Part shown: one piece after another, positions 4,197 to 62,700 of the stretch | Position numbering within the stretch: position 1 is the first letter of the stretch | Layout: the number at the start of each line of letters is the position of its first letter | Assembly: GCF_051622035.1 (NCBI RefSeq) | Contig: NC_135355.1 | Location: 23,738,486 to 23,802,485 of the forward strand | DNA length: 64,000 bases | Reading direction: 5' to 3' | Origin: Arctopsyche grandis | Lineage: Eukaryota > Arthropoda > Insecta > Trichoptera > Hydropsychidae | Program-made: the position numbers and the translations under genes | Notes under the pieces: model-generated | The model's input: only the letters and a program-made list of their open reading frames with translations | Databases searched by the model: none | Told to the model about the DNA's origin: nothing

Positions 4197-5040
4197 CACT
4201 GTTCGACATATGACGACTTTTATTTTGGTTCAGAGACGAGATACGACTTTTCTTGTAGATATATGCCCAGTGAACACGAATCTGGTAATAAAAAATGTTG
4301 ATTGGCTCGAGATTCGGAGATATGTGTTTTTTAAATCGCGCGATTTTTCTATATCTTGGTGTTATTCGGACGATGTCTCAAAATCTGTCAATTTCCTGTT
4401 AAAAATGAATATTGGAATCTATATTCGGGTATTTTATCTTTCATTTGTAGTACTTTTCAGCTTTCAAATGTCTCTTAGTAGTCATCCAGTTCAAATAAAA
4501 AGTCAAAAGTACGTACGAGCTTTTAGCTCGAAATTTTACCGATTTAAAATTCAGCACACTTGTATTTCTCCCCTTAGAATCGTATATCGTGGAAAGAGAC
4601 GGAGCTTGGCGAGTGTTAACGAAGTACTCACTGACCAAGCTCCGTCTCTCTTTCTCCCCTTGGAATCGTATATTGTCGAAAGAGACGTGGCATATCACTT
4701 CGTTCACATGATCGGCCGACATTAATTCAATTTTAAATTATTAATAAGTTACATTATGCCAGTGGAATTTTATTTAATTCTCATATAAAGATAATTTAAT
4801 ACATTATCCCTATTAATTCAATTGAGATTCGTTTAAATACGAGTAAACACTAGTACGAGCTTTTTGCTCGCAATTTTACCGATTTAAGGTTCAGCAATTA
4901 ACCCTTAACCAATTAACCCTTTTAAACGAAAACAAAAAATAGTGTGGCCAGAACACTATCCCAATAAACATCTTTCAAAATAGCATTAACAGTGCGAAAA
5001 AATCCCAAGTGAAAATACGTACTTTTGACTTTTTATTTGA
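4197..5040 (+). repeat. Partial copy of the CACTGTTCGAC foldback repeat
   Basis: The first ~320 bases match both arms of the palindromic element at 15768-17079. The start CACTGTTCGACA and the interior (ATGCCCAGTGAACACGAATC and following) are shared. Inside lies a separate hairpin, GAGACGGAGCTTGG at about 4598 pairing with CCAAGCTCCGTCTC at about 4637. It is not protein-coding despite a 171-codon open frame. Confidence 0.7.
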
Positions 5041-10521: not shown

Positions 10522-10715
10522 CTAGTGTTTTGCCTGTTGAAATTTCAGCGGGTGCTTTCGGATTGATACATGATTTAAAATAAAGTTACAATATGAACGG
10601 TAATAATTAATCGGTATTGGAACTGAAACAGAAATCAGGAATCGATTATGCCGATTAAATAATGCAATAAGAAACAATAATAAATAAAAGTCGAAATCCG
10701 AATCAGAATATGGAT
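10522..10715 (-). mobile_element. Helitron-like 3' end (truncated)
   Basis: On the minus strand the sequence ends in a short hairpin (CCCGCTG...AAACAGGC-type arms) followed by CTAG (10525-10522) and then T. This is the canonical 3' terminus of a Helitron. The opposite end is lost: the element stops at 10716, where a 70-bp block shared with 12541-12610 begins. Confidence 0.6.
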
Positions 10716-10785
10716 TTCTGTTGTGGTGATAGATAATGCGTCTTATCACTAGAGGTAGGACCGGAAGCGTGCCGTTCTTTATTTA
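10716..10785 (+). repeat. 70-bp copied junction of mariner transposase and MITE
   Basis: All 70 bases are identical to 12541-12610. They comprise 34 bases of the DD82E transposase (the VVVIDNASYH codons) and the first 36 bases of the MITE inserted there. It sits between a Helitron end and a broken Tc1 transposase gene. Confidence 0.85.
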
Positions 10786-11516
10786 CCAAACGAAGTCGTA
10801 CTGTTGACGTAGATATTTCACGTTTTCGTCCTTTAATTGTTGTTGAATATTTTTTTTGTAATAAATCGATTCTTGGGAACAAGCCTGGCGATTTTTCGAT
10901 CCACACGAGGGCCAAATTTTTTTTTAGTACCACTATTAGCTCGCCGCTTGAGTGTGGGGTCGCAATCAGTCTCCAGATTTTGTTTTATTTTTCTAATAGA
11001 CGCCCTACTAACACCCTCCATTGTCGCGATTTTGTTTTGAGAAAACTTTCCTGTATTTAATAATGATGTAATGCTTGCAATTTTTTCTTTAGAAAGATCT
11101 GATTTTTTACCCATCTAAAAAAATCCAATAAAAGTTTTACAAGCAATTTAAATCATAAAACAAAGTAAAATTTCGAGATATTAAATACCAACTTACCTTA
11201 GAAATATGATAAAGTTGCAGTAAAAGAGAAAAAAACACAGTGCTTTTCACAAAATAATGAATGATTTTAACGGAAACGCACGTCAATATTGAACAAAATT
11301 CAGACGCAAACCGATTTCAAACATCTTTCTTTTGTTTTTGAAGACCTTTTGAGGGATAATCCACCGATATTTTTTGCTAGTGAATAGAGTTGCATTTAAG
11401 GATAAGATCACAAAAAAAATGAGGCCAAAAGCTCCCATAATGAGTTATTTACGACCGTGACAAATTTACCCAAACGCATCTCGAGAGGGGTGGCGTAATA
11501 TTCTGGTCAGGGACTG
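10786..11516 (-). mobile_element. Truncated Tc1-like transposon
   Basis: Minus strand. The outer end at 11516 reads CAGTCCCTGACCAGAATATT after a TA, a Tc1-type terminal inverted repeat. The coding part (from 11114 downward) begins MGKKSDLSKEKI and continues with a paired-type helix-turn-helix: the SQNKIATMEGVSRASIRKIK segment is a typical recognition helix region. A frame change occurs around 10930-10833, where the sequence continues as RLRLV in another frame. The reading then stops abruptly at 10786 at the 70-bp junction block. The DDE catalytic domain and the second terminal repeat are missing, so the copy is dead. Confidence 0.85.
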
Positions 11517-11747: not shown

Positions 11748-13749
11748 ATGGAGAGATCATCCAAAGTCGGAACAGGCAAAGCTTTCAATAGCCAAGCAAA
11801 ACAATTAATATTAAATGTTTACATGTGGTGTGCACTTACACAAACATCTAATTCTTCGACGTTTCCTGTCATTGACATAGCTGCAAAAGCCCTAAAAGTT
11901 TCCAAATCTTCATTAAGCAAAATTATCAAAGAAAACAAAGATAACATATATGTACATATGTCTATCTTCTCCAACAAAAAAAAAAATAGAGAACACCAAA
12001 AATCCTATGTAGACAGTTTTGATGAAGATGTCATTAGGCGCACTATCCACAACTTTCATGTGACCGAAAAAAATTTGCCAACGCTTTCTCGAATATTAGA
12101 AAAATTAAAACAATGCATAGGGTTTACAGGCAAGCGCACTACTCTTCATAAGCTTTTGAAAAAATTGGATTCCACTGGACTGATATTTGTTTCAAGAGAA
12201 AATGTGTATTGTTTATAAAAGGATCACATTTTTAAGGTCGATAGCTCGATTTAGAGCAGTAGGTAGACCAATCGTGTATACCGATGAAACATATGTACAT
12301 ACATTCAACACACGTTAAGTCAATAGCGTGGGGAGATTCATCAGGAAGTGGCTTGAAAAATCCGGCATCCACAGGAGCGAGGTTTATAATTGTACACGCC
12401 GGTACAGAACGAGGCTTTATTCCAAATGCCTTTCTCATCTATAAGGCTCACCAAAGAACCGGAGACTATCACCATGACATGAACTTCGACAATTATATAA
12501 AATGGTTAACCGAGAAATTGATACCAAATTTGGAACCGAATTCTGTTGTGGTGATAGATAATGCGTCTTATCACTAGAGGTAGGACCGGAAGCGTGCCGT
12601 TCTTTATTTATCGTTCGCCGTGCATTGTTCATTTTTATGATGAACCTTTTTTTTGCACTCTAGCTTTGTAGTTTGTTCTATTTCCTGGAAAAAGGACGCT
12701 TCCGGTTCTACCTCTACTTATCACTAGTCACCGGAGCCTGAGGGGGCCGTGTATTGTTCAAAGGTTGTAAATGCATTGTTAAAGGTTTGCCGAACAATGG
12801 ATAGCACTGTGACTATCCTACCTCTACTTATCACTAGAGAGCGGGACGGAAATGCGCCAGCACAGGAAAAAATGCTCTCTAGAGATCAAAAAAAAAGGTT
12901 AACAATAGAAATTGTCAAAAGGATCCCGTTTCGGCGTATTCCGTCGCCGAAGACTGCTTATCACTAAAGAGCGGACCCAGAGCGAGCCGTTCATTGTTCA
13001 CATGTTGTAAATGCAGTGTTAAAGGTTTGCCGAACCTTTTTTACAAAGCATTTACAATAATTGAACAATAGACGGCGCGCTCTGGGTCCGCGCTTTACTT
13101 ATCACTAGAGGTAGGACCGGAAGCTTGCCGTTTATTGTTCAATTGTTGTAAATTCTTTGTAAAAAAGGTTCGGCAAACCTTTAACAATGCATTTACAACA
13201 TTTGAACAATAAACGGCCCCCTCAGGGTCCGGGCTTTACTTTTCACAATAAGATTCTTGACCCAGCGCCGACTTCAAATTCCAAAAAAGACATTATGAAG
13301 CAGTGGTTGACGGAAAAAAATATTTATTTCGACCCGCAAAGTTTAAAAGCAGAGCTTTATAAATTAGTATTGGAGAATAAATGTCGACATAAAAAAATTG
13401 TTATAGACTCTCTCTTCGAACAGCATGGTCATACATCTTTAAGGTTACCCCCATATCACCCGAAACTCAATCCAATTGAAAAGATATGGGCAGTAAATAA
13501 GGGATATGTGGCTTCAAGAAACGTCGAAATGACAATGGAGTGTAAAAAAACTTGTGCTTGAAAAAAGTGCCTTAATTAATGACGAGTGGAGTGTGATCAC
13601 GTAATAAAAGTAGAAGACCAATATATGAAAAGTGATCATGTAATGGACAAAATGGTTGACGACGATTTGTTGCATTTTACTGTCAACGATACACCGGATT
13701 CCTCGGACTTCGATTCAAACAAGGTTTTAAGCTATGTTGAGTTTGATTG
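11748..13749 (+). pseudogene. DD82E-type mariner/Tc1-superfamily transposase, interrupted
   Basis: The N-terminal part (11748-12218) has a helix-turn-helix region (AAKALKVSKSSLSKIIKEN). A frame change near 12210 leads to FLRSIARFRAVGRPIVYTDE, with the first catalytic Asp. A 4-bp microsatellite expansion right after ETYVH shifts the frame again, and 12284-12574 carries the second Asp in VVVIDNASYH. A 672-bp insertion (12575-13246) follows. Downstream, 13247-13561 continues exactly in register and has the third acidic residue in HPKLNPIEKIW. The acidic C-terminus ends near 13749. Skipping the insertion, exactly 82 residues separate the second Asp from the Glu. This is unlike the 34-41 of most Tc1/mariner groups but equals the spacing I recall for the DD82E 'Sailor' family. 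The element is inactive because of the frameshifts and the insertion. Confidence 0.8.
12575..13238. mobile_element. Array of five tandem hairpin MITEs sharing one 8-bp target motif
   Basis: Five units lie end to end: 12575-12716, 12725-12826, 12835-12956, 12965-13097 and 13106-13238. Each is preceded and followed by the 8-mer CTTATCAC (12567, 12717, 12827, 12957, 13098; the last copy at 13239 reads CTTTTCAC). Unit 1 has 20-bp terminal inverted repeats, TAGAGGTAGGACCGGAAGCG with one mismatch. Unit 4 has TAAAGAGCGGACCCAGAGCG-type ends. Unit 5 combines a unit-1-type left end with a unit-4-like right end. An interior segment (GTAAATGCA.TGTTAAAGG) is shared by units 2, 4 and 5. The 8-bp duplications suggest hAT-family mobilisation. 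The host is the DD82E transposase gene. Confidence 0.85.
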
Positions 13750-14305: not shown

Positions 14306-14317
14306 TATGTACTATGT

Positions 14318-14475
14318 ACTGTATGTACAAATAGCCAATAATTCGTCGATACTGTATGTTCAAATAGTCAATAATTCGTCGATACTGTATGTACAAACAG
14401 TCAATAATTCGTCAATACTGTATGTACAAATAGCCAATAATTCGTCGACACCGTATGCACAAATAGCCACATCCT
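14318..14475 (+). repeat. 33-bp minisatellite, about 4.8 copies
   Basis: The unit ATACTGTATGTACAAATAGC plus CAATAATTCGTCG repeats with a few substitutions. Because the unit length is divisible by three, the frame stays open (repeated LYVQIANNSSI), but there is no other sign of coding. Confidence 0.85.
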
Positions 14476-15175: not shown

Positions 15176-17392
15176 TCATATTCTAACAGCTTCATCATAT
15201 GATGGCGGAGGTGGGCAAGTCTCTGAAAATATACAATATATATGAATTCTCCATTGACAATATCAAAAAATCACTCTTTGAGCAATCACAATCGTTATAT
15301 AAATGAATGCAAACTATACCAAATCTTGAAGTCGAAGATTCAGTAAGATCTATTGTTGTGTATGCCGGAGGTGGAGCATGTACTACGGCACCAGTGGAAT
15401 TTGAAGATAACCCATCAGAATTTCGATTACCTGATATGGATGTTGGAGTATGGACTCTTCCTGTTACTACGAATATTGATGATTGTTGGTGAACGACACG
15501 TTTTCTACCTAAAACATGTGTAAAATATGTCTCAATATATGTAATTTTACATTATGACTAATCCTCTATACTAAAATGATAACAGATAAATAAGTTATGA
15601 AACAAAGCAAATTCAATATAAACTGATAAAAACAAATGAATTTTATTACAAAATTTGCTGTCACGATTGAAATACATACATACACGTTTTCCATTTCATA
15701 TAAATAACTAGTAGCCTGTGTGCACATAATAATAAAATATCGCAATTCTGATCAACGGAATTAATAACACTGTTCGACAAATGACGACATTTTTTTGTTT
15801 CAGAGACCAGATATGACTTTTATTATAGAATTATGCCCAGTGAACACGAATCTGGTAATAAAAAATGTTGTTTATCTAGAAATTCGGAGATAAATGTGTT
15901 TTATAAATCGCGCAATTTTTCTATATCTTGGTGTTGTTCGGTCGATGTCCCAAAATCCGTCAATTTCCTGTTCAAAATGAATATTGGAATCTATAGTCGG
16001 GTATTTTATCTTCCATTTGTAGTACCTTTCAGCTTTTAAATCTCTCTAAGTAGTCATCCAATTCAAATCAAAAGTCAAAAGTACGTATTTTCACTTGGGA
16101 TTTTTTCCCACTGTTAATACTATTTTGTATTGAGTTTTTTCTATTGAGACATGTTTATTGAGATAGTGTTCTGACCACACTATTTTTTGTTTTCGTTTAA
16201 AAGGGTTAATTGGAAGTGTGCTGAACTTTAAATCGGTAAAATTGCGAGCAAAAAGCTCGTACTAGTGTTTACTCGTATTTACACGAATCTGAATTAAATT
16301 AATATATTAAATTATCTTTATATGAGAATTAAATTAAATTCCACTTAGAAAAATCACATTTCGACTATTCTTGTGGATTAATAACAAAAATTCGTTTATT
16401 TTATCGAGGTAAGCCAGTTATCAATAGAATTTTTGATATTAATCCACAAGAATAATCGAAATATGATTTTTCTAAGTGGAATTTTATTTAATTCTCATAT
16501 AAAGATAATTTAATATATTATCCCTATTAATTCAATTCAGATTCGTGTAAATACGAGTAAACACTAGTACGAGCTTTTTGCTCGCAATTTTACCGATTTA
16601 AAGTTCAGCACACTTCCAATTAACCCTTTTAACCCAGATAGTCCTGAAACTTTTGATGAAACGAAAAAAAAATAGTGTGGTCAGAACAGTATCTCAATAA
16701 ACATGTCTCAATAGAAAAAACTCAATATAAAATAGTATTAACAGTGGGAAAAAATCCCAAGTGAAAATACGTACTTTTGACTTTTGATTTGAACTGAACA
16801 ACTACTTAGAGAGATTTTAAAGCTGAAAAGTACTACAAATGGAAGATAAAATATCCGACTATAGATTCCAATATTCATTTTGAACAGTAAATTGACAGAT
16901 TTTGAGACATCGACCGAACAATACCAAGATATAGAAAAATCGCGCGATTTAAAAAACACTGTATATCTCCAAATCTGGAGCCAATCAACTTTTTTTATTA
17001 CCAGATTCGTGTTTACTGGGCATAGATCTATAAGAAAAGTCATATCTCGTCTCTGAACCATTTTTCGTGTCGAACAGTGTAATTTATTAATAATTTAAAA
17101 TTTAATTAATGTCGGCCGATCATGTGAACGAAGTGATTTCCACAATATACGATTCCGAGAGGATAAAAAGAGACGGAGCAGTGTTAGCAGTGAGTACTTC
17201 GTACACACGCATGCACGCACGCATAGAACAATTATTATATAAGATAGGTATAGATACTTACGATTGTGAGGAGATACAACTTTGCAGCCATTGCAAAAAT
17301 ACATGCAAATTACCATCAAAGTGAAAATGGCAAATCCCACCGAGAAATAGAGTATCATACTCATTTTGATATGTTTAAGGCATCAGGTCAAT
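15176..17392 (-). CDS. Small single-pass membrane protein with two PPxY motifs (112 aa, spliced)
   Basis: Three coding exons: 17364-17262 (the exon begins at 17392 after a TTTCAG acceptor), 15508-15320 and 15222-15176. Donors are GTAAGTATCT and GTATAG; acceptors are TTTTAG and TTTTCAG. The coding total is 339 nt, exactly 113 codons. The start follows CATATCAAA, and an in-frame TGA lies just upstream. Residues about 4-24 form a transmembrane helix, followed by CNGCK and a basic HNRRKR stretch, so the C-terminus should be cytosolic. PPAY (81-84) and PPSY (103-106, near the end in PPPPSYDEAVRI) are WW-domain ligands typical of NEDD4-family ubiquitin-ligase adaptors such as Commissureless- or NDFIP-like proteins. 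I cannot name an orthologue; the NEDD4 role is inferred. The first intron holds a 1.3-kb foldback element. Further 5' non-coding exons probably lie upstream. Confidence 0.75.
15768..17079. repeat. 1.3-kb foldback (long palindromic) element inside an intron
   Basis: The left arm starts CACTGTTCGACA at 15768 and the right arm ends TGTCGAACAGTG at 17079. The two arms, about 580-600 bases each, are highly similar in inverted orientation. The spacer (about 16350-16475) itself contains a smaller inverted repeat (AATCCACAAGAATA type). One arm is repeated at 4197-4520. There are no transposase-like frames. The DNA right of it (17090-17215) also resembles the repeat near 4540-4740 in inverted orientation. 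Confidence 0.85.
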
Positions 17393-18200: not shown

Positions 18201-18532
18201 CCATGGAAACCATTAGGGAGACAGCATTGCTTATATGTGTAGAAATTGCGAATAGTACGAGTATTCAATTGCATCATTAGATGAATTTCATTTAAAAAAA
18301 AAAATAGACTTAGTAATTTTTGATTACATACATACATATATACTCCTCATTTCACAGCATAGTGTATTCAAATTGTCTGTACCTCATTTGTGTTTTAACA
18401 AACTTTTGATTTAATATACTATTAAGTCTGATTTGTAAATAAACTATTTTTCTAAAATTCATATTAACAAACATCCCCTACACTATTAGTCAATTAAATG
18501 GGGATTTCACTGATGACAACTTCAATCACACG

Positions 18533-18731
18533 CAGTGCCGGTTTTAAGGGGGGGCTAGGTTGGGTAGCGCCCGAGGGCGCCGAACGATGCGCCAAAGGCG
18601 ATTTAAAATTTAAAATTAGAGCGCCAAAATCCATTCAAAATTTTAGATTAGAACGCCAAAGGCGAAAGTTCTTTCTAAGGATGTTTAGAAAAAATTGTCA
18701 GAGGGCGCCATCGGGTGTAAGGCCGGCACTG
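18533..18731 (+). mobile_element. 199-bp hAT-type MITE with perfect 8-bp target duplication
   Basis: Termini CAGTGCCGG...CCGGCACTG are flanked by identical ATCACACG at 18525-18532 and 18732-18739. The interior is GC-rich with GAGGGCGCC and GCGCCAAAGGCG repeats and has no coding capacity. The 120-codon frame across it is incidental. Confidence 0.92.
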
Positions 18732-18739
18732 ATCACACG

Positions 18740-43929: not shown

Positions 43930-46900
43930 TACATATATACCAGGAAGGCCTTACAGGTAAGCCTTAATGCGCCTTCCTGGCCAATTACAAATTACAATTA
44001 CAATTAGAATGCAGCATTTTTATTACAAGTCGTTGAATTACGAGACACTGAAAAACTCGCAAATTAACGAGACATCTATGAATTGTACATAAATTTTATT
44101 GTACATTAATCATACTTCAAATAGTGGTGACATAGTAGGTAGGAAGGATTTATAGCCAATTTTTAAACGGGAACCGTTTCAAAAATTAAATCAGAGAAAA
44201 TTGGCAAACTCTGATAGGAAACGATCGACCTGCAGTCACAATATCCAAGTCTGACCAGCAGCACTACAGCTGAACTCCGAAAAATTCTTTACCAGTCGAG
44301 GTCGGCTCATGGGATCGAACCCGGCGCTTCTCGGTGTTAAGCAGAAGCTTAACGACCGAGCTATGCTGCTGGCTATGTATGTATGTATGTACATATATAT
44401 GCACTAGCATATCCAGAAATGTCGCGGGTTGAGCGAGCTCGGTGCGGACGTGTGTTTGTGTGTTGTTCCCGATAAGTATGTAGAATTTTGTGTTAAATTG
44501 GAGCTAAAGAGGAGGTGCTGGGATGAGTATGTAGCTCTTCTGGCGCCTCGCAAGTTAGTACATATTCAGAATCATTACCTATGCTTGATTTCATATTTTT
44601 TAAATGGAATTTAAATTTATAATATTTTCATATTTACATAACTACCCACATAATTTCGATCACATTTCTTTTGATAATAATTTACTATTAACGTCGATTG
44701 ATTTATTAATGATAGTATTGATAATATTTAACGTTGAATTATTTCATATTTAATATTGAGTGAATGGTTTGATATTTAATGTTGAATTATTTCATAATTG
44801 ATTATTTAATGTTGAGTGTTGAATTATTTCATAATTGATTATTTAATATTGAGTGTTGAATTATTTAATATTTAGTTTTGATAATTTAATATTTGATATT
44901 GGATACTTGTACTCAACGTTAACGTTATTGTTTGGTACTAATTTCATAAATATTATGATTGTGAATAAACTGTCTATATATGTAAATATATCATAAATGG
45001 AAACACACGTCCGTCCGCACGGAGTAATTAATAAGCTCAGAGCAGAGCTCCATGCAACCGCTCAGGTCCCCAAGTTGCAAATAGGGGAACGACTCTTGCA
45101 GTCAACTGCCATGGCGACATGGTGGTCCTGGACAAGGAGCGCTGAGATAAGAGTGGTGATGAGTGAATCCGTGGTAAGTTTCACTCTATAAAATGTCACA
45201 CAACACTATGACGGTCTCAGGTCAGCGGCGAGTAAGTGCCGCCGCTTAACAAAAGCACAACCCGGTTTTCAAAGGTACCGTATCATCTTTGACAGAGAAG
45301 GAAACTCTATAATAAATCCCTGGTAGTGGGCAGCAGCTCTGCCAGTATAAGATGTCAAAACATTTACTGCGCTGTAGAAGGAAGTGGGAATCCACTGCAG
45401 TATTCTCCCAAGATAACTATGATGTACAAAAATAAAAGTGTGAAGAAGTCTGACTCTCCGGCTGACACCCGGCGCCTTCGAGGTTCCAGGTCTCACGGTG
45501 TGAAATTGGCTACTGGCCACATGCATGTGACTCACCAGGCATCATGTGGAAAATATGCGACTGGAGAAACTTTACGGAACAAATCCAAAATAGGTACTTG
45601 GAACGTTAGAGGACTCCTGAATCCTGGGAAAACACTGGTTGTTGAGAAAGAGATGTACAGTCATGGGCTAGATATACTCGGAATCTCGGAAACGCACTGG
45701 AAGAACAACGGCCATTATAAAACTTCAAATGGAAATACGATATATTTTTCTGGTAACCAAGATTCGTCACATAGCGGTGTCGCGGTGATCTTAGCATCTA
45801 AATTAACCAGTGCACTAATTGGCTACAACCCCATAAGTGACAGACTTATACACTTAAAACTCAACACGCATCCGTATAAACTAAACATCCTTCAAATATA
45901 TGCTCCTACTGCAGATGCCGAAGATATTAAAATAAATGCGTTCTATGCTTCACTACTCGATACATTGTCAAATATCTCAAACAAAGAAATGACCATCATT
46001 CTTGGTGATTTTAATGCCAAAGTCGGTAATAATAGCAACATTGATAACATAGTAGGTAAATATGGATTGGGTATTCAAAATGAGAGAGGAGAGAAACTTA
46101 TAAGTTTCTGCATTGAAAATAAAATGTCCATTATGAATACTTGGTTTCAACATCATCCTAGGCGATTGTACACTTGGATATCTCCTGGGGATCGTCACCG
46201 CAACCAAATCGATTATGTATTAATAAATTCTAGATGGAAATCATCGATACATAACGTCAAAACATATCCAGGTGCAGATTGCGGATCGGACCATAACTTA
46301 CTTGTTGCTAAATTTCGACTGAAATTGAAAATGATTAAAAGACATCAAAATAAAGCAATTAAACTCACCAATGATGATGTAATTAATTTTGGCAATGTAA
46401 TCAGAGAAAAAGATGCAGAATTCCAAATAAATCCTAATGTAGATGTAGAAGAGTCTTGGAAAATTTTTAAAGATCTCATAATTCGGTATGCCAGAAAACA
46501 TCAAACACCGCAAAATGAACATCGTAAGTCTTTTATCTCTGATTCAACTTGGGTTAAGATAAAAGAACGTAAAAGACTTAAACAAACTGGCATAACATCG
46601 ACAGAATATCTTGAAAGGTATGCAATATTACATAAAGATATTCAAAGGAGTTGTAGGCGGGATAAAGCTAAATATATAAATGACATATGTGAGGAGATAG
46701 AAAAACACGCATTAAAGAATCAGGCAAGGGATATTTTTCACAAAGTAAAAATCGTCACTCAAAAATTTTCACCCAAAACTTGGACAATAGATGATCAATT
46801 TGGAAACACGCTTACAGATATTGATGTGATACTCAACCGATGGAAAGAATACTGTTCGGAATTGTACAGTGGTAGTTCGTCGACCTCAATTGTTTCCCTA

Positions 46901-49900
46901 ATTGATGATGTCAGGGAGCCTGACATATTGACATCTGAAGTTGTAAATGCCATAAAGAAACTGAAATGTAAAAAGTCTCCTGGCAGCGATGGTATACAAG
47001 CTGAACTTCTGAAAGAGCTTGGTGAAACTGCGATAAAGGCGCTATGTAATATGTGCAACAAGATCTGGGTAAACGGAGTATGGCCGAAAGATTGGGTCAA
47101 TTCAATATTCATTCCCTTACACAAGAAAGGATCTACAAAAAAATGCGAGAATTACAGGACCTTAGCCTTAATATCGCACTCTAGTAAAGTATTGCTGTAT
47201 ATAATTAAAGATCGTTTGAGCAGTTACCTTGGATGGCAAATACCGAACGAACAAGCAGGGTTTGTAAAAGGCAAAGGGACGAGGGAACAAATACTGAATA
47301 TACGTCAACTCATTGAAAAATGTCGGGAGTTTCAAACTCCAGCCGTTCTTTGTTTTATAGACTATAAAAAAGCTTTTGACTTTGTGAACTGGGACTATCT
47401 GTGGAAAGTTCTACTGGACATGGGAGTCCCCATGCATCTTGTAAAGATAATACATAACTTGTATAATGATAACAATGCAGTAGTTCGAATCAATTCGCTA
47501 AACTCGACAAATTTTCGAGTACAACGTGGAGTAAGGCAAGGGTGTATATTATCTCCAGACCTATTTAATATATATGGAGAGTATATAATGCGTAGAGCAC
47601 TGGATGGTTGGAAGGGTGGAGTGTCCATTGGTGGTAAAAAACTATCCAATCTTCGGTATGCGGATGACACAACGCTCATAGCTAATAATCATGAAGAAAT
47701 GGCCGAACTGATCCGTCGTGTTGAGACAGAGAGTAATGTGCTTGGCCTCCAGATAAACCGCCCCAAAACAAAAATTATGATAATTGACCGTCACCAACAG
47801 CTGCAAAACAACAACTCAGCTTTAAACGGTATAGATGTGGTTGATAATTTTGTCTATCTGGGGTCACTCATATGTAACAACGGCGGCAGCGAATTGGAAA
47901 TATGGCGCCGGATTACATTAGCAAAATCGGCAATGTCACAACTAACGAAGATTTGGAAGAATAGAGCCATTACAACTGCTGTCAAAATCCGTCTCGTGAA
48001 GAGTCTCGTTTTTTCTGTCTGCCTTTATGGTGTCGAGACGTGGACCATGAAGGCGGCGGATAGACGGAGAATCGATGCCTTCGAGATGTGGTCCTGGAGA
48101 CGGCTACTGCGCGTGCCTTGGACCGACAAACGCACGAATGTGTCTATTCTTGAAGAATTGAAAATCAAGGATAGATTGTCAACAATATGCCTGAAACGTA
48201 TATTGCAGTTCTTCGGCCACATTGCACGAAGAGGTGAGGAGAGCCTGGAGCGGTTGGTTGTGGTTGGTAGCGTCGAAGGCAGAAGAGCCAGAGGCAGATC
48301 CCCCGCACGCTGGACTGACCAAGTATCTGCAGCGACGGGCGCTTCCACGGTAGCAAGTCTTCGCCTGGCCGAATTTAGAACTGAATGGAGGCAGCTGGTT
48401 GACCGCACATCATAGTCACGATCCTCAGTGATGAGGGAACCGACAGCAATATATATATCCAGAAATGTAATGTAAGGCTCTGTAGATATGTATGTATATA
48501 TGCACTAGCATATCCTTTCAAGCTTAGTTATGTACGTGACCTTTGAATTATCACGTACCTGAAAACGCCACAATAAAAAAATCATGCAATTATGTAAAAT
48601 TAAAATAGAAAGACCTAATACAGAAATCAAAATATATTGTGAATAATGAATTTAAATGTAAAATTAAGTATTTATACATTTGAAATTAAAATCGTTCAAG
48701 GAGGGGGGGGGGGGGCATAGTACCCATAGCACCCCCATTTGATTCGCCTATGTATGTATGTATATACTTATTAAAGATCGAACAGAAAATTTCTTAAAAC
48801 AATATGGACACTAACCCTCCCATCTTTTCAAACACATGATGGCAGTGAGATCGCATACATCGTCGATAAATTGAAACGGTGCGAAGAAAGGTAGACAGCC
48901 ACAGGTGGTGTGCATATTCCTCAGACGACAGCTGAGCATGCAATCGCTGAAAGAATCGACGAATTTTTTCTTGTCCGATTCGAAAAGACATCCTCGGGTC
49001 GATGGTGCCAAACTTTCAACGGCACTTGTGCTAGTTATTGAAACGGCGTCCAATGAAAGGTATACTTCTGTCCTAGGGGCTGTGGGTATTTCATAGCAAC
49101 CGCCACTGTATACATCGGGATAGTCACCAGAGTTGAAAATCAACACCTGAAAATTATAAATGTTTTATTCAGCATAGAAGGTTATCTAGAACAATGTTTC
49201 AACTACAATGCAAGTGCCGAACAATTGAAACATAAATCAAATGAAATATGTATGAAGATAAATTAATAGATAGCTTATTTAAATCTATGTATAAATAAAA
49301 TTGAATGGAGGTGAAGGTATGTATTTTTTCAGCAGTATTCGGTCCGATTCTGAAACTATAAAAAGCTGGAAGATAGTTTTATTTTATTTATTTTTATTAT
49401 ATACATATGTATATACCAGGAAGGCCTAATAGGTAAACCCCAATACGCCTTCCTGGCCAATTACAAACAATGCAGCATTTTTATTACATAAGTCGATGAA
49501 TTACGAGACACTGAAAACTTGAAATTAACGAGAAATATGTGAATTTTACTTGTACATAAATTTTATTGTACACTAGCTGAACCCGGCATGCGTTGCAATG
49601 CCAAAAATATAATGATTTTCCAGTATTTTCCTATACTTAATTTCAAATTTTGACATAAACTCTTAAGGTCCAGCTTCAGATATGTGTAATGTATGTATGG
49701 TAATATGTAATCTACCTCGACTCGGTATCCCAACTTTTTCATTTCAGATTTATATTTAATATATAATTCCTAATATACATTCTAAAAACAGGTTAGTTTC
49801 TATGACGATATATTTTCTTTTCGATTCAAATAAATTCGGTCCCGGCCCCGGGGGTACCGAAGGCTCTGGGGGTGAAGGCGGCGGAGGAGCAGGCGACGAG

Positions 49901-52059
49901 GCAGGGACGTCATTTCAGCTTTTTCTTAGGGGGTCCATTGGTCCATTGTGATATTATATTTGCGGGCTGTCGCTGAGTTGGCTGTCACCGAGTTAGCTGT
50001 CGCAGGGCCGAAATAACGCAGTGCCCACTCATCACGGTGCTGAATCATCGCGTCGTCGAGAAAAACCTATCGCCGAATCGGTCTCGTCGCCGAATTGACC
50101 GGGTCTCTTTCTAACAATTCGCTCCACAGGTCGAAACATTTCTAAGAATTTTACCCAAGGAATAACATTTTACAAAACAAAATATAACTTTTTTTCCAAA
50201 ACTAATGGGTGGCAATTGCCCCCCCTATGCCCCCCCCCCTCCCAAATGACATCCCTGCGACGAGGGCTCAGGTGCGGAGGGCGCAGGCACCGGATTCTGG
50301 TGTACATATAATTTCGAAAGAGACTTAGTATATATGTATGTTTGTTTGTTCGTGACAGTCAATTTAATTAAAAAAAACAAATGAATATTCAAATAAATTT
50401 AAATAAAATAAATCTATTCAAATAAATTTATATAAAATAAGTCTATCCAAATAAATTTAATAAAAGGTTTACTATAAGATTAGTCATGTTTAAGCGGTTT
50501 ATATTACAAATACCGAGTGAAGCTGGGTAAAACCACTAGTACTTATATAAAACACATATTCGAAAAAGTTTCACATACTGAAATACTTATTTTACGAGAT
50601 AAACATTAGCTTTTAAAAATGTTTTGTAAGAATTAATTTTGAAACGTTTTTAAAATATTTTAAAGGTCTGTTAATAGTTTAAAATCTATGAATGATTAGT
50701 GATTACAACATGTCTCGTATATTAAAGATATTATATACATGTATTCAAAAAAAATTTTTATATACAATATACAAACTCCTGTTTAAGGAGACAAAAAGTT
50801 GAGAAAACGAGTCTCGAGATATGTAAGTTGGTACAATGGACCAAGCGCACCTTATAATAATATAATATATGAATATATGTACACTAAATCCAGCATTCGG
50901 CACACTCGTATACAGATAATCTTCAAGCATTGGATTCAACAATACAGATAGGCCACGATCTTGTCCAGACATTGCCATTAATTTTGGTCCTTTATCAACA
51001 GTCAAATTACTGAAATTATTGATTTACTCACCTTAATTTTATAAATTTTGTTGTGTTAAATATATATTATTATTATAAGTTAAATAATTTAAATACGTTA
51101 GAAATGCGTCGCCTATTCTTCCATAATTAAAAATACAACAGAAACCTTCCATAGTTTTGCGCATTGTGAAAATTTGCGAACATTCTCTTGTAACACCTCG
51201 CCATATACAACGAATCAATATTTCATCGCAACTGGGCGCCAGCTAAAATATAATTTATTTTTATTTTAATAAAGCAATTTATAAAAATTGCACGAACTGC
51301 CGTACATCTCTCATCAGTGTCTCCAGGTTATAAGGTTCGAGGATGCCGTGAAGCGTTTCCATTTCATCATCTTCAGGCATCTCCAAATCTAAAGCGAGAC
51401 CCAAGAAACTCAGCAACTCAACTAATTTTTCTACGTCATACGGCAGGGACTTGTTGGCAATTCTGAAATGGAAACATGATTGAATATGTACACACATCAT
51501 TGAATTGTTCATAGTAGGTAGTTTAGTTAGATTGCGAGCTTTTACAGCGACTCGGCTAGTTTTGTTGCTTTGGCACGACTTATTTTATTGTAGGGGCATA
51601 TTGCTACAGCAGGATGAGGTACAGTAGAAAGAGACACGTCAGTTGGGGCACGTGTTGTAGCCACAGGGGCTAAAATGGCTCCATTTCCGGCTACCCACAG
51701 TAGCCAAAGTGCTACTCCAGTTGCTACAGCATGTACTATGCGCCACATCCATCTGAATACAAGTAAAAAAATATTTAGTTTGATATGTAACACCTAGTTT
51801 TTGTATGAATTTTTAATAGGAGTTTAATTTAGACATACCTTTCCCAATTTTCCATGGTGTCGTCGACGATATATTGATAACAGTTAATCGAAGAATTTTC
51901 GAAATATTCCTTACCGGTCTTTTTGAATCTACCCCAACACACGCCAACGAATGTCTTCAATTTTTCAAACGAATTTAAGGCAAACTTTTTAATTTTGAAA
52001 TTATTTGGGAGCAATCCTCCATTCTCACCTCCCATAACAATATTTTTTCGTCTGTTCAT
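42262..52059 (-). CDS. Pickpocket-type DEG/ENaC channel subunit with altered gating motif (556 aa, 9 exons)
   Basis: Exons: 52059-51839, 51752-51546, 51462-51294, 51242-51097, 51009-50883, 49146-48816, 42959-42764, 42690-42584, 42428-42262. The total is 1671 nt, exactly 557 codons, with GT/AG borders throughout. Features of a two-pass channel: TM1 about 75-97 ([19 protein letters not shown]), [37 protein letters not shown], and a Cys-rich domain with [20 protein letters not shown] and [15 protein letters not shown]2 carries the selectivity motif GGS (513-515) in [18 protein letters not shown]. The N-terminal segment that normally reads His-Gly is Asn59-Cys60 here ([10 protein letters not shown]), a striking loss of a gating residue. 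The 5.9-kb intron 6 holds a SINE and a full-length RTE LINE, and intron 5 holds Helitrons and a hAT MITE. The gene is a tandem paralogue of the gene beginning at 41994. Confidence 0.92.
43140..43400. repeat. G-rich repeat fragment
   Basis: A poly-G run (43165-43180) followed by GGTAAAATTTCCTGGGGTCC and, near 43365-43385, CCGGGGAATTTTCTCCCGGC. It is similar in character to the repeat at 3612-3720. The 76-codon frame at 43683-43453 shows no channel homology. Confidence 0.35.
43860..44374 (-). mobile_element. tRNA-derived SINE with expanded (TA)n tail
   Basis: On the minus strand the head reads GCCAGCAGCATAGCTCGGTC (A-box-like TAGCTCGGTCG, 44363-44353). It is followed by a B box GGGTTCGATCCC (44322-44311), the two internal RNA polymerase III promoter elements. 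The body continues to GCGCATTAAGGC and CCTTCCTGGTATATA. It ends in a ~60-base AT dinucleotide run (43865-43926) that I read as its expanded 3' tail. A 5'-truncated copy is at 49395-49572. Confidence 0.8.
44423..48454 (+). mobile_element. Full-length RTE-clade LINE, copy 1
   Basis: A 4.03-kb element flanked by ATATCCAGAAATGT direct repeats (44409-44422 and 48455-48468). It has a 0.9-kb 5' region with two 37-bp tandem units (44781-44854), one long ORF (45326-48415) and a very short 3' UTR ending CGACAGCAAT plus an AT microsatellite tail. It lies in intron 6 of a ppk gene, antisense to it. A near-identical copy is at 59735-63767. Confidence 0.93.
45326..48415 (+). CDS. RTE endonuclease-reverse transcriptase, intact (1029 aa)
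   Basis: One ORF encodes the apurinic-like endonuclease and the reverse transcriptase used for target-primed retrotransposition. Endonuclease landmarks: TWNVRG at 91-96, Glu122 in ISETHW, Asp228 and Asn230 in GDFNAKVG, and SDH at 321-323. RT landmarks: SPGSDGI (551-557), Asp679 in [19 protein letters not shown] (737-744) and YADD (778-781). The C-terminus has the [20 protein letters not shown] segment and a GRSPARW motif typical of RTE/BovB-like proteins. All catalytic residues I can check are present and there is no stop. It differs from copy 2 at only four residues (for example Cys850 and Trp860 here against Ser and Arg there). Arg860 of copy 2 looks ancestral. Confidence 0.96.
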   Translation: MGSSSASIRCQNIYCAVEGSGNPLQYSPKITMMYKNKSVKKSDSPADTRRLRGSRSHGVKLATGHMHVTHQASCGKYATGETLRNKSKIGTWNVRGLLNPGKTLVVEKEMYSHGLDILGISETHWKNNGHYKTSNGNTIYFSGNQDSSHSGVAVILASKLTSALIGYNPISDRLIHLKLNTHPYKLNILQIYAPTADAEDIKINAFYASLLDTLSNISNKEMTIILGDFNAKVGNNSNIDNIVGKYGLGIQNERGEKLISFCIENKMSIMNTWFQHHPRRLYTWISPGDRHRNQIDYVLINSRWKSSIHNVKTYPGADCGSDHNLLVAKFRLKLKMIKRHQNKAIKLTNDDVINFGNVIREKDAEFQINPNVDVEESWKIFKDLIIRYARKHQTPQNEHRKSFISDSTWVKIKERKRLKQTGITSTEYLERYAILHKDIQRSCRRDKAKYINDICEEIEKHALKNQARDIFHKVKIVTQKFSPKTWTIDDQFGNTLTDIDVILNRWKEYCSELYSGSSSTSIVSLIDDVREPDILTSEVVNAIKKLKCKKSPGSDGIQAELLKELGETAIKALCNMCNKIWVNGVWPKDWVNSIFIPLHKKGSTKKCENYRTLALISHSSKVLLYIIKDRLSSYLGWQIPNEQAGFVKGKGTREQILNIRQLIEKCREFQTPAVLCFIDYKKAFDFVNWDYLWKVLLDMGVPMHLVKIIHNLYNDNNAVVRINSLNSTNFRVQRGVRQGCILSPDLFNIYGEYIMRRALDGWKGGVSIGGKKLSNLRYADDTTLIANNHEEMAELIRRVETESNVLGLQINRPKTKIMIIDRHQQLQNNNSALNGIDVVDNFVYLGSLICNNGGSELEIWRRITLAKSAMSQLTKIWKNRAITTAVKIRLVKSLVFSVCLYGVETWTMKAADRRRIDAFEMWSWRRLLRVPWTDKRTNVSILEELKIKDRLSTICLKRILQFFGHIARRGEESLERLVVVGSVEGRRARGRSPARWTDQVSAATGASTVASLRLAEFRTEWRQLVDRTS
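49395..49572 (-). mobile_element. 5'-truncated SINE copy
   Basis: Matches the body and 3' end of the SINE at 43930-44110 (CCAGGAAGGCC...CGCCTTCCTGGCCAATTACA and the ACGAGACACTGAAAA segment). The tRNA-like head is missing. It directly abuts a Helitron 3' end at 49573. Confidence 0.75.
49573..49800 (-). mobile_element. Helitron 3' end (minus strand)
   Basis: The minus strand reads GGCATTGCAACGCATGCC, GGGTTCAG, CTAG (49576-49573), then T: the same 3' end as at 28680 and 40624. The 5' limit is not clear. Confidence 0.55.
49800..50539 (+). mobile_element. Helitron with GC-rich interior, interrupted by a hAT MITE
   Basis: The 3' end is TACCGAGTGAAGCTGGGTAA, ACCA, CTAG (50536-50539), then T. The interior (GGCGGCGGAGGAGC, GCAGGCACCGGATTCTGG, TACATATAATTTCGAAAGAG) matches the complete element at 52851-53255. 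Its left boundary is approximate. Confidence 0.65.
49902..50257 (+). mobile_element. 356-bp hAT MITE with perfect 8-bp target duplication
   Basis: Termini CAGGGACGTCATTT and AAATGACATCCCTG are flanked by CGACGAGG at 49894-49901 and 50258-50265. It is nested in the GC-rich part of a Helitron, which in turn lies in a ppk intron. There is no coding capacity. Confidence 0.92.
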
Positions 52060-56289: not shown

Positions 56290-56720
56290 TATGGAACAAC
56301 TGGGTCTACGTGACGAGACAGAATGTTAAATTACAGAAAACAAAAATATCGGAAGGCAAAGATCGAAAATCGAAAGATCTTAAGTCGAAAGATAAAAAAA
56401 AAATGGTGCATGGTAAACGGTACATACTCACGTACATACTCACTTAATTTGCGCGAGCAGGATACAACAGGAACAAGAGGAACAGGCTTTTCCTCCCGTA
56501 TTAATGTGCGCGCGCAGAATACGGGAGGAAAAGCATGTTCCTCTTGTTCCTATTGTATCCTGCTCGCGCAAATTAATTGAGTATGTACCGTTTACCATGC
56601 ACCATTTTTTTTGATCTTTCGACTTAAGATCTTTCGATTTTCGATCTTTGCCTTCCGATATTTGCGTTATCTGTAATTTAACATTCTGTCAAGTCACGGA
56701 GACCAGGAACAACTATGTAA
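56290..56720. repeat. Foldback element A, ~420 bp
   Basis: A near-perfect palindrome. TATCGGAAGGCAAAGATCGA, an AAGATCTTAAGTCGAAAGAT block, ACGGTACATACTC, GCGCGAGCAGGATACAA and CCTCCCGTATT on the left are all mirrored on the right. The axis is in GTGCGCGCGCAG near 56508. The outer arms include CAGAATGTTAAATTACAG and its complement. A smaller inverted repeat (CTCGACCAATAGCATTTC) lies just left at 56107-56170. Confidence 0.9.
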
Positions 56721-56825
56721 GTCGTCTGTAAAATTTGGCAATTTATAAAAAGGTACGACTGATCTAGATTTAGATAATGGGTATCGCCGGTCTTGGAGGC
56801 TTAAGGTTTCTGAAAAACGGGTCTA

Positions 56826-57172
56826 CCCCACGGGATCGAATTAGAAATGCACGAAAAACCAAATATCGGAAGGCAAAGATCGAAAATCGAAAGATCTTAA
56901 CTCGAAAGATAAAAAAAAGGGTGCATGGTAAACGGTACATAATCACGTACATCCTCACTTAATTTTCGCGAGCAGGATACAACAGGAAAGAGAGGAACAT
57001 GCTTTTCCTCCCGTATTAATGTGCGCGCGCAGAATAAGTGAGTACGTACGGTTTATCATGCACCCTTTTTTTTGATCTTTCGACTTAAGATCTTTCGATT
57101 TTCGATCTTTACTTTCCAATATTTGGTTTTTCGTGCATTTCTAATTCGATCCCGTGAGGTGCACCCCTGAAA
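56826..57172. repeat. Foldback element B, ~345 bp
   Basis: The inner arms are nearly identical to foldback A (GGAAGGCAAAGATCGAAAAT, GTGCATGGTAAACGGTACAT). The outer arms are different and again palindromic (GGGATCGAATTAGAAATGCA and its complement). Near the axis one side is shortened compared with A. Confidence 0.88.
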
Positions 57173-59734
57173 AACACATGGCTACGAGTATTACTTTTAC
57201 CCACCAAGATTATTCAGAACAAATCTGTACATATTTACATAGACATATTCGTAAACTCGCCCCTTTCAAAGGCTATATATAATAATTAATATTAATGCTA
57301 TACAAGCTAGAGTGATTATTGCAAATTTGTTTTTCGATGATTAATTTTATTGAAAATTTACGATTGTGATTATGAATTTTTATTTTGATGTATTTATTTT
57401 GTCTTTTTGTTTTTTGTTATATGTTATATTATTTTTATTATTTCATAATTTTTATCATATTATTATTCTTATTATTTTGATATTTTTATTATACTGTTAT
57501 TTCTATTTTTTTTTCTTTTTGTTTTCTCTAACTATCTTACTCTATTATCATTTTTGTTTCTTATTTTAAATGTTTGAGCTTTTCTTTTTTTTACCTACAT
57601 GTGAAAATTATTAATGGTTTACTTAACATAATTATGTTTTTTTACTATCAATCTATGTAACTTAATAAACTGTAAATTTTCCAAATAAATAAATAAAAAT
57701 AAATAAAATAAAATACACTTTCACTTCACCTAGATCTCTTCAATACAATTCGAATGAGGAGTTTAAGCAGATTCTCATGGATACAGAGGTAATATATGAC
57801 CAAAATATTATTAAATGAATGAATTCTAGTTTAATAGTAATCTTTGTCATTGTTTGCGACTAATGGAACACTCCAAAGATATTTGTCATGATAATACAGC
57901 CCCATGGTTTGGATACGAAGCGAAACAAGAGTTCGTATCGAATTCAAGGATAGCTTCGGATATGATTTGCATTGGATATAACCTGATTGCATTCGAGTCT
58001 GTGCAGCGAGAGGCGGCATAATAGCAGTTCCGGATCTGGCGCTTATGCAAGACGTTGCTGACCAGCCGATAACTATGCTGGTGGTGGTGGTGGAGTCAGG
58101 ATCGAGAGAGGGGCTCGCCATCATCATCGTTGTCTTGGGAGATCACCAAAGTTGACCAGTTGACCATTCAGACGACGAGTGTCGACCGTTACATTCCCTT
58201 CCATCATCATGCTGAAAGGCATACAAAAGCGTGAGTGTTTTGACAACTACTATGTTACCCGGAGGTTGCCTTAAAATTTATCCATGTTTGTCTGCTATTT
58301 TTTTATGAATACTATTGGTAAGTTTGAGACGGAAATTGTTGCACAATAGTCGTGTCAAATGCATCGCGTTTTGCCGGTTGGATAATGGTGTAAAAAGTGT
58401 GTTGAAATGTCAGCCAAAAGTTATGACCGCTAATAACGGGTGTGAACTGTGTGAATCGAGCTCAATTAAAATATGTATGTACGTATATTCAGCACATTGG
58501 AAAATATTCAAGTAATATATTTATGTATGTATACAAAAAGTGTTTATAAACATGAATAAGTTGAATGTTTGTATGTATGCAAATAAATCTATAAAGTTTT
58601 CAATTCAAAACCACAACATTTTGTATACAATTTCACGATTCTCTAACTGCATTGAGTATAGACTGCATGTTATTGGAAGGGGTATGCAACCGAAGTCAAA
58701 ATTCATACAAATATTTTAAAAAAGTTTTTCAATCGACTAGTAATATTATAAAATATATGTATAATATTAAATATTTGAGTCTAAAAATGCATTTGTTTAG
58801 TTTCTAGTCAAAATATTTGTGACATCAATTGCCGCTTCATTCTGTTTTAAATTATTATCTACCTAATTTTAAATGCAAATTCATTCCTCTTAAGAAGGAT
58901 TGTTTCACTTGATGCAATATATCAATGCCCAAACTTCGCTTTACGTGAAATATGCGACTAAGCTCCAAATACATATGTACATATGTATGTGTATTTACAC
59001 AATACTTCGTATTAATATATGTATATATATATATATATACATATATATGGGTATGGACAGAATCCAGGCGACAACATTTTTGACCTTTCTAAGATGAAAA
59101 AATCCCAATTCCAATTCCAATTACAATACAAATATTATAAAATATTCAAACGAAGCCATCTACTTTCAAATTGAGTGGGTAGATAAAAATAATCTCGAGT
59201 TTTCACGAAAACTACATATACATATGTACATACATACATACATACATGTGTTATCCACATGTAGGTTGCGTACAAAAAAATCAATAAATTTTATAATATT
59301 ATAATTTAAAATTACATGAAATTTTTATTAATTTAGAAAAAGCCAACGAAAAGATGTAAATATTGACTTGATTTTATTTTAATACTACTAAGAATAAAGA
59401 TTATGGTTCAAAAATAGCGTTTTTTTATTTTTATAATTAAAATTAATCTTTTATAAAAAATTGATTATCTCTATGCTGTATCTATGTACATATGTACATA
59501 TATAGCGTTCAGAAGTGTTAATCTTTATACGATTTTGACCGACAGTGTATGTATATGTACATACCTTAAGTACAAAAAAATAAAATATATTGAATCTATT
59601 ATTATGTACAGATTCCTATTTTTTTAAACATACATACATATGTAATGAAAATATATTCTCAGTTTATTATATGTACATACATATGTATGTATGTTTATTC
59701 AAATATGATCCAAAAGAATACAAATTATTCATTA
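57173..59734. other. Intergenic DNA; possible unassigned exon
   Basis: Mostly AT-rich. A higher-complexity patch at 57830-58250 has a 98-codon minus-strand frame (58127-57831) starting MMMASPSLDPDSTTTT with an in-frame TGA upstream. A nearby plus-strand stretch 57733-57789 is bounded by AG and GT. I cannot connect either to a known protein, so neither is called as a gene. Confidence 0.35.
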
Positions 59735-62700
59735 TATTGCTGTCGGTTCCCTCATCACTGAGGATCGTGACTATGATGTGCGGTCAACCAGCTGCCTCCA
59801 TTCAGTTCTAAATTCGGCCAGGTGAAGACTTGCTACCGTGGAAGCGCCCGTCGCTGCAGATACTTGGTCAGTCCAGCGTGCGGGGGATCTGCCTCTGGCT
59901 CTTCTGCCTTCGACGCTACCAACCACAACCAACCGCTCCAGGCTCTCCTCACCTCTTCGTGCAATGTGGCCGAAGAACTGCAATATACGTTTCAGGCATA
60001 TTGTTGACAATCTATCCTTGATTTTCAATTCTTCAAGAATAGACACATTCGTGCGTTTGTCGGTCCAAGGCACGCGCAGTAGCCGTCTCCAGGACCACAT
60101 CTCGAAGGCATCGATTCTCCGTCTATCCGCCGCCTTCATGGTCCACGTCTCGACACCATAAAGGCAGACAGAAAAAACGAGACTCTTCACGAGACGGATT
60201 TTGACAGCAGTTGTAATGGCTCTATTCTTCCAAATCTTCGTTAGTTGTGACATTGCCGATTTTGCTAATGTAATCCGGCGCCGTATTTCCAATTCGCTGC
60301 CGCCGTTGTTAGATATGAGTGACCCCAGATAGACAAAATTATCAACCACATCTATACCGTTTAAAGCTGAGTTGTTGTTTTGCAGCTGTTGGTGACGGTC
60401 AATTATCATAATTTTTGTTTTGGGGCGGTTTATCTGGAGGCCAAGCACATTACTCTCTGTCTCAACACGACGGATCAGTTCGGCCATTTCTTCATGATTA
60501 TTAGCTATGAGCGTTGTGTCATCCGCATACCGAAGATTGGATAGTTTTTTTCCACCAATGGACACTCCACCCTTCCAACCATCCAGTGCTCTACGCATTA
60601 TATACTCTCCATATATATTAAATAGGTCTGGAGATAATATACACCCTTGCCTTACTCCACGTTGTACTCGAAAATTTGTCGAGTTTAGCGAATTGATTCG
60701 AACTACTGCATTGTTATCATTATACAAGTTATGTATTATCTTTACAAGATGCATGGGGACTCCCATGTCCAGTAGAACTTTCCACAGATAGTCCCAGTTC
60801 ACAAAGTCAAAAGCTTTTTTATAGTCTATAAAACAAAGAACGGCTGGAGTTTGAAACTCCCGACATTTTTCAATGAGTTGACGTATATTCAGTATTTGTT
60901 CCCTCGTCCCTTTGCCTTTTACAAACCCTGCTTGTTCGTTCGGTATTTGCCATCCAAGGTAACTGCTCAAACGATCTTTAATTATATACAGCAATACTTT
61001 ACTAGAGTGCGATATTAAGGCTAAGGTCCTGTAATTCTCGCATTTTTTTGTAGATCCTTTCTTGTGTAAGGGAATGAATATTGAATTGACCCAATCTTTC
61101 GGCCATACTCCGTTTACCCAGATCTTGTTGCACATATTACATAGCGCCTTTATCGCAGTTTCACCAAGCTCTTTCAGAAGTTCAGCTTGTATACCATCGC
61201 TGCCAGGAGACTTTTTACATTTCAGTTTCTTTATGGCATTTACAACTTCAGATGTCAAGATGTCAGGCTCCCTGACATCATCAATTAGGGAAACAATTGA
61301 GGTCGACGAACTACCACTGTACAATTCCGAACAGTATTCTTTCCATCGGTTGAGTATCACATCAATATCTGTAAGCGTGTTTCCAAATTGATCATCTATT
61401 GTCCAAGTTTTGGGTGAAAATTTTTGAGTGACGATTTTTACTTTGTGAAAAATATCCCTTGCCTGATTCTTTAATGCGTGTTTTTCTATCTCCTCACATA
61501 TGTCATTTATATATTTAGCTTTATCCCGCCTACAACTCCTTTGAATATCTTTATGTAATATTGCATACCTTTCAAGATATTCTGTCGATGTTATGCCAGT
61601 TTGTTTAAGTCTTTTACGTTCTTTTATCTTAACCCAAGTTGAATCAGAGATAAAAGACTTACGATGTTCATTTTGCGGTGTTTGATGTTTTCTGGCATAC
61701 CGAATTATGAGATCTTTAAAAATTTTCCAAGACTCTTCTACATCTACATTAGGATTTATTTGGAATTCTGCATCTTTTTCTCTGATTACATTGCCAAAAT
61801 TAATTACATCATCATTGGTGAGTTTAATTGCTTTATTTTGATGTCTTTTAATCATTTTCAATTTCAGTCGAAATTTAGCAACAAGTAAGTTATGGTCCGA
61901 TCCGCAATCTGCACCTGGATATGTTTTGACGTTATGTATCGATGATTTCCATCTAGAATTTATTAATACATAATCGATTTGGTTGCGGTGACGATCCCCA
62001 GGAGATATCCAAGTGTACAATCGCCTAGGATGATGTTGAAACCAAGTATTCATAATGGACATTTTATTTTCAATGCAGAAACTTATAAGTTTCTCTCCTC
62101 TCTCATTTTGAATACCCAATCCATATTTACCTACTATGTTATCAATGTTGCTATTATTACCGACTTTGGCATTAAAATCACCAAGAATGATGGTCATTTC
62201 TTTGTTTGAGATATTTGACAATGTATCGAGTAGTGAAGCATAGAACGCATTTATTTTAATATCTTCGGCATCTGCAGTAGGAGCATATATTTGAAGGATG
62301 TTTAGTTTATACGGATGCGTGTTGAGTTTTAAGTGTATAAGTCTGTCACTTATGGGGTTGTAGCCAATTAGTGCACTGGTTAATTTAGATGCTAAGATCA
62401 CCGCGACACCGCTATGTGACGAATCTTGGTTACCAGAAAAATATATCGTATTTCCATTTGAAGTTTTATAATGGCCGTTGTTCTTCCAGTGCGTTTCCGA
62501 GATTCCGAGTATATCTAGCCCATGAGTGTACATCTCTTTCTCAACAACCAGTGTTTTCCCAGGATTCAGGAGTCCTCTAACGTTCCAAGTACCTATTTTG
62601 GATTTGTTCCGTAAAGTTTCTCCAGTCGCATATTTTCCACATGATGCCTGGTGAGTCACATGCATGTGGCCAGTAGCCAATTTCACACCGTGAGACCTGG

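Follow-up and report, generated by a model that had tools for sequence, protein, structure and literature searches.

Unlike hAT-like MITEs standing in a row between copies of one octamer: a probable case of serial insertion into a single duplicated target in a decayed transposase gene

Transposable elements can form tandems by inserting more than once into one site, a described route that is enabled by the duplication of the target (PMC12628747). McGurk and Barbash (2018), as cited in that article, reported dimers of transposable elements and the expansion of hobo to 16 tandem copies. Hobo, which is a hAT element, is among their examples of tandems formed by multiple insertion. The array that we describe here from Arctopsyche grandis follows the same logic as those tandems, as they are cited in PMC12628747 and PMC12368964, in that a duplicated target stays available. 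It differs from them in that its units are short, belong to several dissimilar types, point in both directions and have exchanged ends. Tandem hAT-like MITEs have also been described at inversion breakpoints of the Atlantic cod (PMC12368964), and these resemble our array in the lack of a transposase, in their inverted repeats and in the occurrence of chimeric copies. The cod units, however, measure 167-169 bp, are highly similar and lie inside long inverted repeats, and since the cod text uses neither 'TSD' nor 'target site', no target copies between units are reported in it under those words. The coral CMITE arrays (PMC2872659) are alike in that full-size MITEs stand in tandem, but they are piggyBac-like (TTAA), and their units and spacers are highly similar, which is read there as slippage. 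A literature search over titles and the beginnings of abstracts brought up no case that we recognised of dissimilar hAT MITEs strung together at a common octamer, which is no proof of absence. Multiple insertion into one site is already known, and the present array is an unusually mixed example, given its mixture of units, its change of orientation and its hybrid ends.

The array occupies positions 12567-13246 of the window, by which we mean the whole stretch of 64 kb that was analysed (33.9% G+C). The initial annotation had described six near-identical octamers that delimit five units, and this is borne out by the mapped octamer starts and by units of 142, 102, 122, 133 and 133 bp (Table 1). 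The octamer copies in the block are identical at 47 of 48 positions. Counted on both strands of the window, CTTATCAC has nine exact matches against 2.00 expected, a number reached by none of 100 shuffles; five of these are in the block, one is in a copy of the left junction (10742) and three are elsewhere. A scan of the window for runs of at least four octamers at a spacing of 80-250 bp, limited to octamers that passed a low-complexity filter, returned only CTTATCAC, two words shifted by 1-2 bases and ATTGTTCA, the last being an arm word inside the units of this same array. The 20-nt end TAGAGGTAGGACCGGAAGCG has four matches in the window at up to three mismatches, three in the block and one in the junction copy, where 0.00 were expected. 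When the block was compared by BLAST with the whole 64-kb window (E up to 1e-3), the junction copy, at 10742-10785, was the only match elsewhere, and the units are thus clustered at this site. Thirteen structures in the window passed a scan for exact 8-bp duplications combined with a 14-nt end match of at most three mismatches, and 4 of the 13 lie inside the array; the same scan on five order-1 random sequences gave 0, 0, 0, 1 and 0 structures. It detected no run of at least four octamers outside the array in the 64-kb window.

Table 1. Features of the array, its host gene and the copied junction. Positions are those of the window. 'A-type' and 'D-type' are names for unit ends coined in this analysis; the strand of units 2, 4 and 5 is their orientation relative to unit 4, the reference. 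Folding is given as the DNA folding z-score, followed in brackets by the number of 200 shuffles that fold at least as well; own-end identity is ungapped over 24 nt.
Feature	Position	Strand	Folding	Own-end identity	Remarks
Copy of left junction	10713-10785	+			Transposase (29 nt), octamer, unit 1 (36 nt); repeats 12538-12610
Left part of decayed host transposase	11748-12574	+			Reading runs through three frames and meets stops; DDE_3 match of ORF 12284-12577 is weak (14.4 bits, under the cut-off)
Octamer 1, CTTATCAC	12567-12574	+			Within host codons of the ASYH stretch
Unit 1, 142 bp	12575-12716	.	-5.62 (0)	88%	Hairpin; A-type ends on both sides, TAGAGGTAGGACCGGAAGCG / TAGAGGTAGAACCGGAAGCG
Octamer 2, CTTATCAC	12717-12724	+			
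Unit 2, 102 bp	12725-12826	+	-0.62 (47)	46%	Hybrid; right tip TCCTACCTCTA is A-type; no significant hairpin
Octamer 3, CTTATCAC	12827-12834	+			
Unit 3, 122 bp	12835-12956	.	-2.96 (1)	54%	Most dissimilar of the five; weak match between its ends TAGAGAGCGGGACGG / CAGTCTTCGGCGACGG
Octamer 4, CTTATCAC	12957-12964	+			
Unit 4, 133 bp	12965-13097	+	-13.45 (0)	92%	Near-complete hairpin; matched D-type ends
Octamer 5, CTTATCAC	13098-13105	+			
Unit 5, 133 bp	13106-13238	-	-9.37 (0)	58%	D-type core inverted relative to unit 4; A-type left end
Octamer 6, CTTTTCAC	13239-13246	+			One mismatch
Right part of host transposase	13247-13561	+			NKILDPAPTSN through the PYHPKLNPIEKIW stretch; ORF 13187-13561, DDE_3 34.3 bits, cut-off 28.6

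Pfam places an F-box/WD40 gene and two pieces bearing amiloride-sensitive sodium channel domains in the rest of the window, which also has two LINE copies and numerous inverted repeats. The LINE copies, at 44421-48453 and 59733-63765, lie in opposite orientation, are both 4033 nt long and are 100% complementary (rounded); each has a 1040-aa open reading frame, the two differing by eye at few residues, and a domain scan of the first copy found endonuclease and reverse transcriptase domains. Either these are recent insertions or the pair is an effect of the assembly. Nested long inverted repeats at 15790-17060 and 4220-5040 belong to a foldback-like element, to which partial relatives exist at a distance of about 11.6 kb, and at 56302-57166 there are repeated palindromic arms with words like GATCTTTCGACTTAA. 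Solo MITE-like structures are present at 49894-50265, with the 8-bp duplication CGACGAGG and the ends CAGGGAYGTCATTT, and at 18525-18739, with the 8-bp duplication ATCACACG and ends beginning with CAGTGCCGG.

Judged from its sequence, the gene that carries the array is a decayed transposase of the IS630/Tc1 type (DDE_3), and the octamer is part of the DNA of this host gene. The left flank ends in VVVIDNASYH and the right flank starts with NKILDPAPTSN, and with one octamer kept the frame is open across the joint and reads VVVIDNASYHNKILDPAPTSNSKK. The initial annotation was therefore right that removal of the block restores the transposase codons. It also placed the block inside the transposase core. 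DDE_3 is matched by the right part (Table 1) and by the joined flanks (201 aa; 47.5 bits, cut-off 28.6). The joined score is about the sum of those of the two parts, which leaves nothing extra to the joint itself. A score of 43.5 bits was obtained with the IS630 model, under that model's own cut-off of 100. We found 155 plasmid records that match the host transposase, 14 of which cover at least 80% of the query; the eight matches listed are all IS630 transposases, with 24.6% identity over 88% of the query (E 4e-4). Upstream of the array the reading runs through three frames with stops, which means that this transposase copy has decayed apart from the insert. Pattern searches, which reach close relatives only, confirmed none of five matches to the right part (104 aa) in viral contigs and none of 26 matches to the joined transposase in genome contigs. 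The block does not look like an intron, as its ends, judged by eye, are not GT-AG. Downstream of the host transposase, at 14317-14469, there are 4.6 copies of a 33-bp tandem repeat.

Nine of the 10 unit ends start with TAG or TAA, as expected from the hAT-like ends in the initial annotation; the description fails for the right end of unit 3, which starts with CAG. The 8-bp target-site duplication that is a feature of hAT-type MITEs is present at all six boundaries, five times exactly and once with one mismatch. Matched terminal inverted repeats of the TAG/CAG type, ungapped over 24 nt, occur in two of the five units, and a gapped end match of unit 3 was equalled by 69 of 1000 shuffles and is not significant. 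The annotation had also seen five hairpins, and these are clear for units 1, 4 and 5, borderline for unit 3 and not supported for unit 2. Units 2 and 3 may be debris, the former having neither matched ends nor a hairpin and the latter no significant end match. The octamer conforms to nTnnnnAn, the stated target preference of Hermes (PMC10368747) and of hobo (PMC11226609), which is a weak point as 11.7% of the octamers in the window conform too. No transposase with such ends turned up, so our assignment to hAT depends on the ends and on the length of the duplication. Viral contigs searched for exact matches to the 20-nt end, or to the octamer plus the end, yielded 0 stretches in either case, and a search of genome contigs for the end pattern also gave 0 stretches. 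The sole viral-contig match to an inner-arm pattern was put aside as chance: over 13,384 bases of that stretch, nothing matched the block better than the 22-mer itself (E 0.002).

Compared globally in the better orientation, neighbouring units are 59% (1-2), 48% (2-3), 47% (3-4) and 85% (4-5) identical. When unit 5 is reverse-complemented, unit 4 agrees with it at 113 of 133 positions, compared with 97 of 133 when it is read directly; in the core the counts are 79/85 (93%) in reverse complement and 62/85 directly. Units 2 and 4 carry the loop word GGTTTGCCGAAC in forward orientation, unit 5 in reverse. Hence the units do not all point the same way, and the earlier description of the chain as head-to-tail does not hold. 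Of the first 71 nt of unit 2, 64 agree with the reverse complement of unit 5 and 58 with unit 4 read directly. Over their full length, units 1 and 3 are strongly unlike units 2, 4 and 5. Between units 1 and 3, and between units 1 and 5, parts of the cores show a relationship in reverse orientation (0 of 200 shuffles in each case), so the units are part of one wider family and are not wholly independent in sequence. That unit 5 mixes end types, as had been noted, is confirmed: the 24 nt of its left end are 96% identical to the left end of unit 1 and 58% to its own right end, while over positions 25 to 60 its left arm shares 92% identity with unit 4's right arm and 39% with unit 1. The switch lies in or near a shared GCCGTT. 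Unit 2 is a hybrid too, which had been missed, and it carries an 11-nt right tip of the unit 1 type, TCCTACCTCTA; elsewhere in the window this word occurs exactly only as the reverse complement of A-type ends, at 10750, 12575 and 13106. These hybrid ends are what one would expect if neighbouring elements had been fused by deletion or template switching; alternatively, units 2 and 5 may have arrived as ready-made hybrid elements.

We consider it likely that the array arose by serial insertion of related hAT-like MITEs into the same duplicated octamer, followed by an exchange of ends through recombination or template switching. Several related but distinct elements would have inserted successively into the 8-bp target CTTATCAC, which would have lain in a transposon of the IS630/Tc1 type, the copy of which at this locus has since decayed. 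Each insertion, presumably carried out by a hAT transposase, would have duplicated the octamer, so that every element came to be flanked by two complete target copies, open to the next; the octamer may be a hot spot, which is more than a single locus can show. That the insertions were serial, whatever their order, and the manner in which ends were exchanged are inferred; the octamers, the unit ends, their orientation, the hybrid ends and the in-frame flanks are observed. Recombination or template switching between neighbouring arms may then have produced the hybrids, unit 5 by giving a D-type element an A-type left end and unit 2 by joining one element's left part to another's tip. If arms were swapped between neighbours in this way, the array once held more ends, and perhaps more units, than it does now. 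Repeated targeting of one octamer was the first of two options offered by the initial annotation, and it is the better supported one, although the annotation had taken ordinary transposition to give one element with two target copies and so overlooked the described multiple insertion into one duplicated target (PMC12628747).

The main argument for serial insertion is that the octamers are nearly identical while three of the four neighbouring pairs (1-2, 2-3 and 3-4) are hardly alike and so are no recent duplicates of one another. If neighbours and octamers had diverged together, the chance of an identical 8-mer would be about 0.015 for pair 1-2, 0.0028 for pair 2-3 and 0.0024 for pair 3-4, in a rough test that assumes equal rates; for pair 4-5 it is 0.27 and uninformative. 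Multiple insertion is recognised by a copy of the target between neighbouring elements that are not recent duplicates. Such a copy stands between all neighbours here, and recent duplication is possible only for pair 4-5, which is 85% identical and inverted. Units 2, 4 and 5 are alike enough that some local copying with inversion may have occurred among them. The internal octamers equal the host codons and are most simply copies of this very target, which would mean that the chain was built here.

The annotation's second option, in which a unit and its octamer were amplified as a tandem, has to be weighed against this. One MITE with its octamer would have been duplicated in place, by slippage, unequal exchange or a rolling circle, and the copies would have diverged later. 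The end motifs common to the units and the core common to units 2, 4 and 5 speak for such an origin, as do the 1.9 copies of a 141-bp period that Tandem Repeats Finder reported over 12986-13246 and the coral CMITE arrays, which their authors ascribe to slippage (PMC2872659). We nevertheless regard it as quite improbable. The near-identical octamers contrast with neighbours 1-2, 2-3 and 3-4, which can hardly be aligned, and unit 5 is inverted against unit 4; since slippage, unequal exchange and rolling circles alone give one orientation, the mixed orientation counts for serial insertion. In the corals, moreover, slippage was inferred from elements and spacers that are highly similar (PMC2872659), and this is not so here. 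A satellite or tandem array has similar units in one orientation, and this block does not, only the 1.9 copies being reported as a tandem repeat. It is harder still to believe that the chain is a single composite element that moved as a whole with the octamer as part of its repeat, and we would give this almost no weight. The outermost octamers do flank the whole block, and part of the left junction is present twice, but the outer ends of the block (unit 1 left and unit 5 right) match at 62% over 24 nt, and the second junction copy is a 73-nt fragment that includes DNA of the host gene. The internal octamers of a ready-made chain would also equal the host codons only by chance (1.5e-5, calculated for one 8-mer and equal bases) or through sequence-guided targeting.

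The junction copy bears on the role of repair as well. It lies 1.8 kb from the original junction and has one mismatch in 73 nt, with 70 nt (10716-10785) perfect. Next to it is a minus-strand helix-turn-helix fragment that by eye looks Tc1-like (ORF 10833-11114; HTH_7 23.8 bits, equal to its cut-off), and one frame extends this fragment to 10786. The copy stops at arbitrary points and looks like filler DNA from break repair. Its 70 perfect nucleotides show that DNA was also copied at this locus by means other than transposition, though not one unit at a time. A mixed route, in which one or two insertions were followed by break repair with template switching between hairpin arms, so that copied and inverted pieces came to make up most of the chain, would draw on this copy, on the hybrid units 2 and 5 and on the reverse-orientation relations of cores 1-3 and 1-5. 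Two hobo insertions in flies with extra duplications are likewise said to fit microhomology-mediated break-induced replication (PMC11226609). We think such a route unlikely, because repair copying must put an octamer at every boundary, whereas the copied junction (10713-10785) ends arbitrarily, and because of the strong dissimilarity of units 1 and 3 to units 2, 4 and 5 over their whole length. The template switching that the annotation had considered thus keeps a secondary role, in the hybrid ends of units 2 and 5 and in the junction copy, and serial insertion into the duplicated octamer stays our preferred reading for the chain itself.

Why one octamer should have been used repeatedly leads to a further idea, which we put forward as a conjecture with a small chance of being correct. 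An octamer flanked by element ends might be a much better target than a bare octamer, so that targeting would reinforce itself. A transposase sitting on the resident ends would draw in elements of any subfamily with compatible ends. If this is true, chains would grow at single sites, and such sites would be a workshop for end swapping and for new MITE subfamilies. Being a single locus, the array serves as an example of a process already described and does not establish a new one. In a small space it preserves a natural record of several MITE types that, on the reading we prefer, were repeatedly inserted into one duplicated target, and in which end swapping can be seen. Should chains of this kind be common in the host genome, they would reveal where new MITE subfamilies and the first units of satellites come from, and also whether hAT transposases prefer targets beside resident ends.
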